Origin: Spirosoma sp. 48-14
Lineage (GTDB): Bacteria; Bacteroidota; Bacteroidia; Cytophagales; Spirosomataceae
Assembly: GCF_001898575.1 (NCBI RefSeq)
Contig: NZ_MKUD01000086.1
Span: 87,613-151,612, forward strand
DNA length: 64,000 bases
Reading direction: 5' to 3'
Shown here: in pieces, positions 50,561 to 55,436 of the stretch
How the letters are laid out: each line of letters begins with the position of its first letter
Position numbering within the stretch: position 1 is the first letter of the stretch
The notes under the pieces: generated by a model
Told to the model about the DNA's origin: nothing
What the model saw: the letters and a program-made list of their open reading frames with translations, nothing else
Database searches by the model: none
Translations under genes and position numbers: made by a program

Positions 50561-52063
50561 TCAGACAAGTATCGGTTTGATGACTTTACCGGCTACATCG
50601 GTCAGGCGGAAGGGGCGCCCCTGAAACTGGTAGGTTAGTTTGGTATGATCGAAACCGAGCAGGTGAAGGATAGTTGCCTGTAGGTCGTGGATATGCGTTT
50701 TGTCTTTCACGCCATAATACCCAATGTCGTCGGTTTCTCCGTACGAGAAGCCCCGTTTTACACCGCCCCCCGCCATCCAGACCGTAAACGCTTCGAGGTG
50801 ATGGTCGCGGCCCATGAAGGGTAACGTTTGCCCGTCCCGGTTTTCCTGCATGGGCGTTCGGCCAAATTCTCCGCCCCAGACTACGAGCGTATCGTCTAAT
50901 AAGCCCCGTTGTTTAAGGTCTTTCAGCAGAGCCGCTACTGCCTGATCCGATTCCTTGCATTTGTTCCGAAGCCCGATTTCGATGGCTCCGTCGGCACTGG
51001 TGCCGTGGGTATCCCAACCCCAGTCGAATAATTGAATAAACCGTACTCCTCGTTCGGCCAGACGGCGGGCTAACAGACAATTTCGGGCAAACGACCCTTT
51101 GGCGGGGTCAACACCGTAGCTATCGAGAATGTACTGAGGTTCGCTTTTGATGTCCATCGCATCGGGGACAGACATTTGCATACGGAAAGCAAGTTCGTAC
51201 TGGGCAATACGGGTCAGAATTTCCGGGTCTTTCACATCCTCGTACTGTTGCTGATTGATCTGGCTGATGGCGTCGATGGTTTGCTTGCGAATGTTCCGGT
51301 CCATGCCATTGGGATTTGAGGCATACAAAACAGGATCACCATCGGTACGGCATTGAACACCCTGATACACAGTCGGTAAAAAGCCGCTTCCCCAAACCGA
51401 TTTCCCCGCATCAGGTTGCTTTCCTCCGGACGCCAGGACAATGTAACCCGGCAGGTTATCATTCTCCGTACCCAAGCCATAGGTCACCCACGAACCAAGG
51501 CTAGGGCGGCCCAATCGAGCGCTACCCGTGTGCATGAGCAGTTGAGCAGGGGCATGGTTGAACTGGTCGGTGTACATCGCTTTCAGAAACGAAATCTCAT
51601 CGGCAACGCCCTGTAAATGGGGTAAATAATCAGACAGCCATGCTCCCGACTGACCATATTGGGCGAACTTACCCTGTGGCCCCAGCATCTTCGGAACGCC
51701 CCGGATAAAAGCGAACTTTTTCCCTTCGAGCAGGGCTTGTGGGCAGTCTTTGCCATTGTACTTGGCCAGTTCGGGCTTGTAGTCGAATAGCTCCAGTTGG
51801 CTTGGGGAACCGGCCATATGGATATAAATGACCCGTTGCGCTTTGGGCAGGTACTGGGATGGATGCGGGGCTGTTGGCTCCGAACTCAACGAGGGGGCAC
51901 CAACGGCATTGTTTTGCGATGACTCCTTGCCAAAAAATCCACAACTGCCCAATATAGAACTCAGGGCCATGGCCCCCAGACCTGTGGAGCAGGTATGCAA
52001 AAAGTGCCGCCGGGTTTCGCGTTCGGCTGCCGTCTGCTGGAGTTCGTTTAGTAATTTATTCAT
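50561..52063 (-). CDS. DUF1501 family protein (sulfatase-like fold, exported)
   Basis: About 500 residues. The N-terminus has a twin-arginine-like signal (RETRRHFLHTCSTGLGAM) followed by LGSCGFFG, so export and perhaps lipidation. Family motifs: VIYIHMAGSPSQLELFDYKP, GAWLSDYLPHL, MYTDQFNHAPAQLLMHTGS, VVWGGEFGRTPM, and the C-terminal HIHDLQATILHLLG. DUF1501 proteins pair with cytochrome-linked DUF1549/DUF1553 proteins, as here, but their reaction is unknown; a role in sulfated glycan breakdown is often guessed. I use the ATG at 52063 (MNKLLNELQQ); a GTG at 52078 lies in repeat DNA. A nuclease cassette separates the pair. Confidence 0.9.
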   Translation of the reverse strand: MNKLLNELQQTAAERETRRHFLHTCSTGLGAMALSSILGSCGFFGKESSQNNAVGAPSLSSEPTAPHPSQYLPKAQRVIYIHMAGSPSQLELFDYKPELAKYNGKDCPQALLEGKKFAFIRGVPKMLGPQGKFAQYGQSGAWLSDYLPHLQGVADEISFLKAMYTDQFNHAPAQLLMHTGSARLGRPSLGSWVTYGLGTENDNLPGYIVLASGGKQPDAGKSVWGSGFLPTVYQGVQCRTDGDPVLYASNPNGMDRNIRKQTIDAISQINQQQYEDVKDPEILTRIAQYELAFRMQMSVPDAMDIKSEPQYILDSYGVDPAKGSFARNCLLARRLAERGVRFIQLFDWGWDTHGTSADGAIEIGLRNKCKESDQAVAALLKDLKQRGLLDDTLVVWGGEFGRTPMQENRDGQTLPFMGRDHHLEAFTVWMAGGGVKRGFSYGETDDIGYYGVKDKTHIHDLQATILHLLGFDHTKLTYQFQGRPFRLTDVAGKVIKPILV

Positions 52064-52069
52064 TGTAGT

Positions 52070-52550
52070 TGACCCCACCCCTAGCCCCTCCCCTGAAATC
52101 AGGGGAGGGGAATTGAGAAGGAGCTTTAGTTGTTAAAATGAGCTTTGATTTTAGTAAGGACAGATTCTAAATCTGTCTCAACTTCTTCGTTGCTAACCCG
52201 TAGAGTTGTAATTCCCAATTGAGCTAATGTATGGTCGCGTTCCTGATCATGTATGATAGTCTCAGGATTTTGATGAATACTCCCATCGACTTCAATGGCT
52301 AATCGCTCGGCCGGACAATAGAAATCGAGTATGTACACACCTATGCTATGTTGACGACGAAATTTCCGTCCTTCCAATTGACTATCACGCAGTTTCTCCC
52401 AGAGTAATGTTTCGGATGATGTCGGATTTTTACGCAGTTCCCGGCGATATTCCTCCATTACTTTCCAATTATGAATTAATTGACTCATCCTAAATAGCGG
52501 TAGTGTTTAGCCCCTCCCCTGAAATCGGGGGAGGGGTTGGGGTGGGGTCA
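52070..52550. mobile_element. DUF559 cassette bounded by ~40-bp terminal inverted repeats
   Basis: The left end 52070-52110 (TGACCCCACCCC..., ending in palindrome CCCCTCCCCTGA-AA-TCAGGGGAGGGG in two parts) and the right end 52511-52550 are inverted copies, alike at roughly 37 of 41 positions. Between them is one gene, a DUF559 endonuclease. The 481-bp unit fits exactly between the start of DUF1501 (52063) and the stop of the DUF1553 gene (52554), two genes normally adjacent. This is the build of a small mobile or homing-type element. No target-site duplication is evident. Confidence 0.6.
52126..52488 (-). CDS. DUF559 (Vsr/restriction-like) endonuclease
   Basis: A 120-residue protein of the DUF559 family, a PD-(D/E)XK-type nuclease fold related to very-short-patch repair endonucleases. 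Conserved features are the N-terminal RRELRKNPTSSETLLWEKLR, KFRRQHSIGVYILDFYCPAE with the first acidic residue, and LAIEVDGSIHQ carrying the E-x-D metal-binding pair, then RDHTLAQLGITTLRVSN. The biological role of the family is not settled. Placement between terminal inverted repeats suggests it acts on, or spreads with, this repeat family. Confidence 0.88.
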   Translation of the reverse strand: MSQLIHNWKVMEEYRRELRKNPTSSETLLWEKLRDSQLEGRKFRRQHSIGVYILDFYCPAERLAIEVDGSIHQNPETIIHDQERDHTLAQLGITTLRVSNEEVETDLESVLTKIKAHFNN

Positions 52551-52553
52551 AAG

Positions 52554-55328
52554 TCACTCTTTCGTAACCACTTCGTCCAAGTTCATGATCGTATTCGCTG
52601 TAACCGTCAGGGCCGCTAGTTGCGGAGAAATGGCCGAACAGTCCATACCAGGGCGATCCAGTAAGTTTTCGGCCTGACCGGGCTGTTGCTGATAATAGTG
52701 TTCAGTGGTTTGATAGAGCCTGACCAGAACCGCCAGTTTTTTAGGAGATATCTCCCGCAGCATAAGCCGTTTGAAACCCGCCTGAATTTGCTGACTGGGA
52801 GAATGGCCGTGTTGACGCATATAGTCGGCTAAATGCTGGGCCGCTTCTACATAGACGGGATCGTTTAAGGTGACTAGGGCCTGTAATGGGGTGTTCGTGC
52901 GAAGCCGACGAAGCTGACAGAATTCACGGCTGGGGCTATCGAAGGTAACCATTGATGGATACGGGGCGGTTCGTTTCCAGTAGGTGTACAAGGCCCGGCG
53001 GTGCAGGTCTTCGCCCGTGCTTTGTTTCCAGGTTTCGCCATCGTAAGGCGACTGCCAGATGCCATCGGGTTGAACGGGCATCACACTGGGGCCGTATAGT
53101 TTTTGGCTAAGTAATCCACTGACAGCTAAGGCCTGATCGTGAACTGCTTCGGCCGAAAGCCGTACACGAGGGCCACGGGCCAGCAGTTTGTTGTATGGGT
53201 CTTTGGCCAGTAGTTCGGGGGAGGCTGTTGACTGTTGCCGGTAGGTTGCCGACATGACCAATTTTTTGAGGAGTTTTTTGACGCTCCAGTGGTCTGTATC
53301 CATGAAATCAGCCGCCAGATAATCAAGCAACTCGCGGTGCGTGGGCGGAATCCCCTGCGTACCCATGTCTTCAACGGTTTCAACAATGCCCGTACCAAAG
53401 AGTTGCTCCCAGAATCGGTTCACGGCTACCCGAGCGGTGAGTGGCTGATCCCGGCTGACCATCCAGCGGGCCAGACCCAGCCGATTTTTAGGCATCTCAG
53501 TAGTCATTTTGGGCAATGAGTTCGGAACGTCGGGTTTTACAAGTTTGCCTTTGACCAGCCAGTTGCCCCGCTCAAATACGTGCGTTTCGCGGAACAGATC
53601 GCCCGAGCCGTCGAGTAGGATGGGGGTTTGTTCGGCATCCGCATTCAGCAGATCAGTGAGAAGTTTGTCCTGTTCGCCAAGGGTATTCTGGGGCTGGCCG
53701 GGCAGGATTGGCGCAAAGGCGACCCACTTAATCTGCACCCACTCTTTCGGCTTCTTGGTACTATTGAGCGACAGATATAGATTATGGCGTCCCTGAACGG
53801 CAGGTAGCGAAATCATCTGAACCGTGTCTTTGCCGGGTTTCGGGGTAGGAATCGTTGCCAGAACGGGGCCATCCAGACGATCCTGATGCAGGGTAACGGT
53901 GGCATTTTCGGCTTTGGTCCCCCAGCGAATCAGCATTCGAGGCCGACCCGTGAGCGTAACTTGCTTGATTCGACATGAACCTTTGTCCTGAAAGCCAAAA
54001 TACTTGGCATCCAGCAGGGAGGCATTGACGTATTGGTCGAAATCGTGCGAATTGATTTTGGGTTCAATGGTACGAACCAGATGGATTACCTGATCGACGG
54101 TAGTTTGCGCCTGTTTTGGGTTAGCGACTGACTGGCGAATATACTGTTGCAGCGTAGCCAGTTTAGTGGAATCAGCAGGTTTTAGAAAGCGTAGGGTAGG
54201 CGTATCACTGGTGACGTCTTCGTCGCGGGTGTTATTGAAAAAGGCCAGGTATTTGTAGTATTCCTCGTTGGTAAATGGATCGTAGGGGTGGCTATGGCAT
54301 TGTACACAGCCGAAGGTAGTACCCTGAAAGACATCCCAGGTGGTATTGACCCGATCAATAACGGCTGCGGTACGGAACTCTTCATCCTGCGTACCCCCTT
54401 CGTCATTAGTCATCGTATTTCGATGAAAACCAGTGGCTACTAGCTGATCATCAGTAGGTTTGGGTAATAAATCGCCGGCGAGTTGTTCTACGGTAAATTG
54501 GTCGAAAGGTTTATCCGCATTGAACGCTTTGATGAGCCAGTCCCGATACCGCCAGATTTTTCGTCCGGGGTCACGTTCATAGCCTTTCGTATCGGCATAG
54601 CGGGCCAAATCGAGCCACATACCCGTCCAGCGCTCGCCATAAGCGGGCGATTGGAGCAATCGGTCGACTACTTTTTCGTAGGCGTTAGGATCGTTATCGT
54701 TTATAAAATCGGTTGCCTCTTTTTCGGTCGGTGGTAAACCTGTCAGGTCAAGCGAAACCCTCCGGATCAGTGTAGCCCGGTCGGCTTCGGGAGAGGGCTT
54801 CAGCTCGTTTTGCTTTAGTTTGTCAAGAACGAAGTGGTCGATTTCGTTTTTAGTCCAGTCCGTTTCCTCATCGTGCGTAATACCGAGTCGGCTCAGGAAC
54901 GTACCAATCTGGGGAACATCGGGTTTCTGAACAGGTTGATAGGCCCAGTGGTCGCCCCATTCGGCACCCTGATCGATCCAGTTGCGAAGCAGTTCTATTT
55001 CATCGGGTTTCAGGGCAGGATGATCGAGCGGCATTCGCTCATCGGGATCGGTCAGGGTAAGCCGTCGAATCATTTCACTGGCGTCGGCGTCACCTGGAAT
55101 AATAGCTGGTTTGCCAGATTTTGCCGGAGCCAGGGCTTCCTGTTTGAACAGTAGCGAAAAGCCCGACGCTTTTTTCACACCACCGTGACAGGCAATGCAG
55201 TTCTTATTGAGCAACGGTTTAACCTGTGTGTTATAATCGACTCGTTTCTCAAAAATGCCCAAAAACGACGATAGCGTGAAGGCTAATCCAACACCCATTA
55301 AGCCAACAAGTATCCATTGAGTTTTCAT
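52554..55328 (-). CDS. PSCyt1/DUF1549/DUF1553 protein (planctomycete-type cytochrome c)
   Basis: Exported protein of about 924 residues anchored by an N-terminal segment ([20 protein letters not shown]). A cytochrome-c motif CIACH occurs near residue 44 (PSCyt1 domain). The DUF1549 domain follows at about 155-370 ([40 protein letters not shown]) and DUF1553 at about 620-870 ([50 protein letters not shown]). It is partner of the DUF1501 protein downstream. The function is probably redox chemistry in the periplasm on an unknown glycan or small molecule. The ATG at 55328 is preferred to a TTG at 55340. Confidence 0.92.
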
Positions 55329-55436
55329 AAACCAATACAATCAAACATCACATGCTTCTAAAAGCACATGACCGGCTATTTGTACTATGAAAATCACTGA
55401 TTGCTTTGATTTTAACGTAGAAGAGTGATAGAAAAG

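Follow-up and report, generated by a model that had tools for sequence, protein, structure and literature searches.

DUF559 nuclease genes bracketed by inverted leader-hairpin repeats: probable minimal mobile elements in Spirosoma and other bacteria

In a 64,000-nucleotide stretch of the genome of Spirosoma sp. 48-14 (contig NZ_MKUD01000086.1, positions 87,613 to 151,612; hereafter the window), a small gene of the DUF559 nuclease family lies between two inverted copies of a short repeat composed of a C-rich leader and a hairpin. Comparison with other DUF559 loci suggests that this unit is probably a minimal mobile element, in which a homing-type nuclease placed between inverted leader-hairpin repeats would spread the repeats cognate to it. 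The argument is sequence-based. It draws on the bracketing of DUF559 genes by ends of the same type, on the joint recurrence of a repeat type and a DUF559 clade at several sites, on type-matched copy numbers, gene-less repeat pairs, presence and absence at orthologous positions, in-frame landing in other genes and conservation of the nuclease residues.

Results

A DUF559 gene between inverted leader-hairpin ends

The gene (positions 52126-52488, minus strand) is a 363-bp open reading frame encoding 120 amino acids and matches Pfam family PF04480 with an E-value of 7.8e-31. In the repeat adjoining it, a short spacer separates an unpaired C-rich leader (GACCCCACCCC) from a hairpin of 26 nt (CCCCTCCCCTGAaaTCAGGGGAGGGG). 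On the 3′ side of the gene, the repeat end (52069-52112, plus strand) is made of the leader TTGACCCCACCCC (52069-52081), the spacer TAG and the hairpin (52085-52110); on the 5′ side, the inverted end (52509-52551, minus strand) comprises the hairpin (52511-52536), the spacer AA and the leader (52539-52549). The original prediction, made from the sequence of the window, had described a single nuclease gene enclosed by inverted ends of about 40 bp, each with an internal palindrome, and this description was borne out, except that the two ends are not identical, as their spacers show. The longer inverted arms (52074-52110 and 52511-52547) extend over 37 nt with 81% complementarity and the outer arms (52069-52093 and 52527-52551) over 25 nt with 84%; the hairpin at 52085-52110 (CCCCTCCCCTGA/TCAGGGGAGGGG) is 100% complementary over 12 nt, that at 52511-52536 is 92% complementary. 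A search for the hairpin pattern with up to 3 mismatches returned four matches in the window, corresponding to the two hairpins on both strands, against 0.00 in shuffled sequences. Folding of the ends as single-stranded DNA gave z-scores of -3.75 on the 3′ side (52069-52112) and -3.24 on the 5′ side (52509-52551), and no Rfam match was found between positions 51800 and 52800. The G-rich strand of the ends (52072-52093 and 52528-52548; for example GGGGAGGGGTTGGGGTGGGG) fits a four-tract G-quadruplex motif. A second DUF559 gene of the same genome (G000:C70; L001 1316-1904) has a full inverted pair of another repeat, ACCCCTAAATCCCCTAAAGGGGA, on each side.

DUF559 genes are bracketed in many genomes

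Matches to DUF559 were found in 23 of 36 genomes of the genus, in some as a fragment only, and in 126 of 296 sampled genomes of the phylum (E ≤ 1e-10). Bracketing was scored by comparing the two 300-bp flanks of the gene with one another in the inverted sense, with a threshold of 30. The set comprised 113 loci, of which 109 could be evaluated, the flanks of L034, L102, L123 and L146 being too short; 40 loci were hand-picked from the best-scoring matches listed, one per genome and with preference for short open frames. Inverted repeats on both sides were present at 71 of the 109 loci, as opposed to 2 of 962 windows taken from those loci as controls. The control windows rule out chance as the source of the bracketing, and the expectation that DUF559 genes are regularly flanked by inverted palindromes was upheld. 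The threshold was reached by 63 of 93 stand-alone genes and by 8 of 16 genes in long frames; among loci of the genus the figure was 22 of 29. When seven genus loci were re-read by eye, all seven had repeats on at least one side, including five that had been below the threshold (L022, L024, L027, L033 and L040).

Plasmids also carry such loci. Eight were fetched, from eight genera, out of 39 plasmid records with a DUF559 match. Five scored 30 or more (Pseudanabaena, Deinococcus, Sphingomonas, Azospirillum and Sinorhizobium), two scored less but have C-rich hairpins of similar look (Synechocystis, 25; Picosynechococcus, 29), and no flanking repeats were detected at the Photobacterium plasmid locus. 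On the Sphingomonas parapaucimobilis plasmid (L279) the unit sits between sufB and sufC, with a repeat that resembles that of the window but has hairpin and leader in reversed order. Of 107 DUF559 loci, 21 have a four-tract G-quadruplex motif in both flanks, against 0 of 541 control windows. The motif was considered as a general mark of DUF559 units and rejected as such, being enriched but not universal.

A second bracketed family of small nuclease genes

GIY-YIG genes were chosen as a negative control family. Inverted flanking repeats were found at none of 13 UvrC-sized GIY-YIG genes, as against 13 of 17 small stand-alone ones (L195, L197-L207 and L210). Because the latter are bracketed by a different repeat, only the 13 large-frame genes were used as control. 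The repeat of the small genes is TTTTTGTCATCCCGACGATAGGAGGGATCTTCGG or similar (TGTCATCCCGA..GGGAT). Its motif occurs within 300 bp of 12 of the 17 small genes, with a pair on each side in five, and was met elsewhere 5 times, in 160 other loci of the genus that total 581,633 bases and in part overlap. These TGTC-tagged repeats of the genus resemble the CGTC/TGTC-tagged repetitive extragenic palindromic (REP) sequences of PMC3733652, a likeness drawn from passages of that paper's text and not from the sequences in its figures. In those passages, dating from 2013, CGTC-tagged REPs are described as apparently having no dedicated transposase. A search of the open-licence PMC literature found no paper naming both "GIY-YIG" and "extragenic palindromic".

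Repeat type goes with DUF559 type

The original prediction had looked to the 40-bp end sequence itself as the mark of the family. In this it failed: different DUF559 lineages carry different repeats. Within the genus, types A (CCCCTCCCCTGA..), B (ACCCCTAAATCCCCTAAAGGGGA), C (CCCTCACCCCAACCCCTCTCCC..GGGAGAGGGG), D (ACCACCCCCAACCCCCTCCT..AGGAGGGGG) and E were assigned by eye; the repeat flanking DUF559 genes is TCCTCCCC..GGGGAGGGGGACC in Alphaproteobacteria and GCCTTCCCCTTGAGGGGAAGGTGGC in a Lachnospiraceae genome. Twenty-seven genus loci form 13 groups by their flanking DNA, and the same groups by their flanking proteins, the group at the methionine synthase gene metH holding two insertion points; types B, C, D and E each occupy at least two sites in the genus. 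Across 56 loci, from which orthologous-site duplicates and loci scoring below 30 had been removed, similarity between repeats tracks similarity between proteins (Mantel test with host phylogeny left in; rho 0.26, 0 of 2000 permutations).

Dispersed copies show the same tendency. Strict hairpins were counted in the 36 genus genomes, with the unit's own flanks subtracted; the own-flank numbers were typed from listings and lean conservative, and the reversed pattern gave 0 in every genome. Hairpins of types A, C and D were enriched where DUF559 of the same type is present (p 8e-5, 0.003 and 0.003, respectively), and mismatched combinations of repeat and DUF559 type showed no enrichment (p 0.28 to 0.90). 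Among the dispersed copies listed for G010, G006 and G003, many have the same loop letters as the unit of their genome. The alphaproteobacterial hairpin was counted in the genomes of 7 of the 8 alphaproteobacterial loci, where it is present in 5 to 40 copies each, own flanks included, and in 3 other genomes, where it has 0 copies. In E. coli, a C-rich repeat found beside the DUF559 gene ycjD (K-12; L072 2703-2745) was located in 5357 of 5426 genomes, with a median of 14 places per genome, and a clear copy is seen on one side of ycjD only. A G-quadruplex/hairpin switch has reportedly been studied in E. coli and may concern the ycjD-linked repeat; the study did not turn up in our literature search.

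These counts bear on the idea that DUF559 is a passenger and that another enzyme, such as a RAYT tyrosine transposase, moves the repeats, sometimes together with a nuclease gene caught between two copies. Pairs of REPs that enclose an enzyme gene have been described for RAYTs (PMC3733652), and repeats do occur in genomes in which no DUF559 of the matching type was detected. The matching of copy numbers to DUF559 type, to which mismatched types contribute nothing, speaks against a passenger, as does the bracketing of this one enzyme family by different repeats in several phyla; the repeats also have no conserved GTAG tag. From these counts of repeats and DUF559 genes, we regard a passenger role as unlikely.

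Many repeats form head-to-head pairs without a gene

Away from DUF559 genes, many repeats are head-to-head pairs with no gene between them. Among the first 50 type D hairpins listed for G016, 22 of the 49 intervals measure 200 bp or less, and 11 of these 49-51 bp. Nineteen pairs were fetched; they share a conserved element, and their flanks are mostly unrelated. In 4 of 13 type D pairs (L227, L230, L232 and L233) the flanks are themselves inverted copies, so that the pair sits at the centre of a longer palindrome, as though it had entered an older repeat or a palindrome. Inverted flanks were absent from all 6 type C pairs. One pair of the window's genome, REPIN 2, is present in G001 and left as a remnant in G015, where the search for an empty site yielded this remnant and no clean empty site.

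Some positions may have received repeats more than once. At one intergenic spot of the window's genome (L226, about position 2091; G000:C10:473090) and its counterpart in G015 (L260, L252), the repeat pairs of two related species differ in type, which would fit replacement or more than one insertion. Repeats are also piled up near two DUF559 genes: those at L024 (type D) are nested and those at L018 (type B-like) lie in tandem, an arrangement suggestive of repeats inserted into repeats.

Units lie in frame inside other genes

Of sixteen DUF559 matches read in long open frames, fifteen have the appearance of insertions within other genes or at their ends; the remaining one, L041, is a large helicase-like protein without repeats. 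Ten were checked by Pfam. In seven of these, host domains lie on both sides of DUF559: the nuclease domain is found inside methionine synthase at two different places (L014 and L022), inside methylmalonyl-CoA mutase (L036), leucyl-tRNA synthetase (leuS; L089), the type I restriction protein HsdR (hsdR; L094 and L096) and a type ISP restriction enzyme (L087). The other three have host domains ahead of DUF559 only: L108 is HsdM, L088 is another DNA methylase, and in L103 DUF559 forms the end of a protein with a glutamine amidotransferase domain. The remaining five (L090, L092, L097, L100 and L109) were assessed by visual reading. In both L088 and L090, what follows DUF559 in the frame does not resemble host protein. 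The repeats are translated as linkers, for example PTPGPSPLGRG and TPLPNGEGLGVG in L014. No sign of splicing was seen for the insertions in metH, leuS and the mutase gene, and the in-frame insertion of a whole nuclease domain into such genes is unusual in itself.

All 36 genus genomes have a metH match, and uninterrupted counterparts could be read at both insertion points. At the second, G029 alone has the insert; in 33 other genomes the two parts of the protein are at most 25 bp apart, G032 is broken elsewhere and G026 is incomplete. A short linker takes the place of the insert in 8 of the 9 loci queried, these being the 8 that could be read. For the first point, the 11 queried loci comprised G012 itself, 6 uninterrupted genes (including that of G029) and 4 at which the point was not located.

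Stable hairpins, often intergenic, could in principle be ordinary intrinsic terminators or regulatory hairpins of the kind that any small inserted gene would gain, which the original prediction had named as an outcome fatal to its proposal. Such an origin is contradicted by the units lying in frame inside coding genes and by the conserved unpaired leader, inverted at both ends. The UvrC-sized controls, devoid of inverted flanking repeats, point the same way, and we consider terminators a most improbable explanation.

Presence and absence at the DUF1553-DUF1501 site

In the window, the unit is followed downstream by a DUF1501 gene (50561-52063, minus strand; PF07394, E 1.2e-154) and preceded upstream by a DUF1549/DUF1553 gene (52554-55340, minus strand; PF07583/PF07587, with PSCyt1, PSCyt2 and PSD1 domains), both outside the unit. 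The DUF1501 gene has an alternative upstream GTG start inside the repeat; its relatives conserve the ATG at 52063. For 30 of the 36 genomes of the genus, the gap between the best DUF1501 match and the gene preceding it was read. A DUF559 unit occupies the gap in 9 of the 30. In 20 it is missing, gene and repeat alike, and the two genes range from a 1-base overlap to a spacing of 84 bp, a few of these gaps holding other small hairpins; in one genome (G020, L066) a decayed repeat pair remains without a gene. Given this spacing at 20 of 30 sites, the DUF1501 and DUF1553 genes do normally adjoin, as had been supposed when the unit was described as wedged between them, and the comparison of empty sites called for at the time came out largely as predicted.

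On a tree of the DUF1501 proteins, the occupancy of the site needs at least six changes, two of them forced by well supported branches; G010, for example, is occupied, and its close relatives G027 and G007 are empty. The occupied sites are not clearly clustered on the tree (39 of 500 shuffles were as low). The host-site tree does not separate a single origin followed by losses from repeated gain.

The enzyme is a stand-alone relative of Vsr and EDxHD homing nucleases

In an alignment of 64 DUF559 sequences, residues Q46, D55, F56, E66, G69, H72, D81, R84 and R97 are invariant and D68 is conserved in at least 90%. Profile searches with the window protein matched PF04480 and, below its cut-off, MTES_1575, and no other family. 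A structure model (pLDDT 89), made of an N-terminal helix and the catalytic fold only, matches 3hrl, the homing endonuclease I-Bth0305I (PDB 3r3p) and Vsr. By its sequence and predicted fold, the protein belongs to the Vsr/EDxHD-like PD-(D/E)XK nucleases. The EDxHD family is named after its active-site residues E, D, H and D; aligned to 3r3p, E66 and D81 of DUF559 face E and D, and the residues opposite D68 and H72 are N and W. The comparison with homing endonucleases, made at the outset on grounds of logic, holds by homology. One scan of viral contigs confirmed no viral relative of the window protein.

A nuclease of this fold may be thought to work for its host, as a Vsr-like repair enzyme or a methylation-dependent nuclease kept for its own function, the repeats being recombination sites or insulators that help it to spread. 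The Vsr-like fold recalls very-short-patch repair, and in the sections of PMC12907096 available to us a Caulobacter DUF559 protein is reported to trigger the SOS response when a methylase is missing. On the strength of that report, the statement that DUF559 has no accepted function no longer wholly applies. No methylase gene adjoins the DUF559 gene of the window, and a service to the host does not predict gene-less pairs matched in type to the enzyme; a repair or methylation role is in our judgement an improbable account of the units. The SOS damage linked to the Caulobacter protein could also be taken as a sign of addiction, with a nuclease that harms DNA lacking its repeats, repeats that act as decoys or protected sites, and selection against loss of the unit. 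The unit is missing from many close relatives, and we give addiction very little credence.

Discussion

The data are best accommodated by DUF559 units that behave as minimal mobile elements. Their selfish character, as first proposed, is supported at the level of sequence by the dispersal of the repeats and by the agreement between the repeat type and the DUF559 type present. DUF559 as the agent, cutting at the repeat, and insertion by repair copying rather than transposase-like strand transfer are what we infer from these patterns. DUF559, a stand-alone relative of I-Bth0305I and Vsr, would recognise the repeat cognate to it, either extruded as a hairpin or at the border between leader and hairpin, and its cut would fall there or at target sites prone to form hairpins. 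During repair, either the whole unit, gene and two ends, or a gene-less pair of ends of about 95-170 bp, resembling REPINs or miniature inverted-repeat transposable elements, could then be copied into the break. Within a genome, the repeats would come to form a population that depends on one or a few nuclease genes, in the way that REPINs depend on RAYTs, and the gene-less pairs would be satellites of the selfish unit.

Several observations weigh against this reading. Below the score threshold lie 38 of the 109 evaluable DUF559 loci, some of which, such as L081 and L148, have neither inverted similarity nor strong hairpins. Type C hairpins are found without a detected matching DUF559 in G008 (13) and G012 (20), and type D hairpins in G007 (13) and G033 (14), so that gene loss or action in trans must be invoked; outside the unit, the genome of the window contains variants of the type A hairpin but no strict copy. 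Part of the leader persists in the relative that lacks REPIN 2, so that loss and gain are equally likely at that position. Nine species share the unit at the DUF1553-DUF1501 site, and much of its inheritance may therefore be vertical. Reading by eye revealed no target-site duplication at the metH, DUF1553-DUF1501 or REPIN sites, where the target regions are divergent. As to the enzyme, two of its four conserved acidic or histidine positions (D68 and H72) are unmatched in I-Bth0305I, and DUF559 is a catalytic domain only, whereas the known EDxHD homing enzymes have a long DNA-binding region.

REP-like repeats are dispersed in many bacterial genomes, and an enzyme-repeat partnership gives the widespread DUF559 a likely role; with ycjD and its neighbouring repeat, E. 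coli makes such a partnership open to direct experiment. In the passages retrieved from the open-licence PMC literature we found no published link of DUF559 or small GIY-YIG genes to repeats of this kind. We put forward a wider proposal more tentatively than the foregoing. DUF559 might be the dedicated enzyme of a third great class of REPs beside the GTAG/RAYT and CGTC classes, and the small GIY-YIG nuclease might serve the TGTC/CGTC-tagged REPs; several unrelated stand-alone nucleases would then serve REPs, two of which would be of the homing-endonuclease type, and the C-rich ends, some of which fit a G-quadruplex, could allow entry in frame into essential genes without inactivating them.

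Among known systems, EDxHD homing endonucleases share a homologous catalytic domain with DUF559, which, unlike them, resides outside introns and inteins and is tied to a dispersed repeat family and not to a single homing site. Rickettsia palindromic elements and other intragenic REPs are palindromes inside coding genes, translated as extra residues; as described in the text of PMC3733652 that we saw, these are repeats alone, of 20-82 residues, whereas DUF559 insertions bring a whole nuclease domain. The CGTC-tagged REPs, presented in the same text as short dispersed hairpins, mostly head-to-head, of Bacteroidetes and Alphaproteobacteria, are like the DUF559 repeats in arrangement, but differ in sequence and tag. 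Another close parallel is that with RAYT/REP and REPIN systems, invoked from the start: in both, one enzyme gene lies between short palindromic repeats, the repeats are dispersed, often as head-to-head pairs, and one repeat type goes with one enzyme type. The parallel stops at the components. RAYTs are HUH (Y1) tyrosine transposases and DUF559 is a PD-(D/E)XK nuclease; REPs carry a GTAG tetranucleotide at the foot of the hairpin, whereas DUF559 repeats have a C-rich leader (ACCCCACCCC or similar), a spacer (AA, CGG, TGG or TAG) and a hairpin without conserved GTAG, which among the ends examined lies near both leaders in L030 only. On both grounds, enzyme and tag, the DUF559 unit is not a member of the RAYT/REP family. 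It would represent a system that works like RAYT/REP, but with an unrelated enzyme and unrelated repeats.
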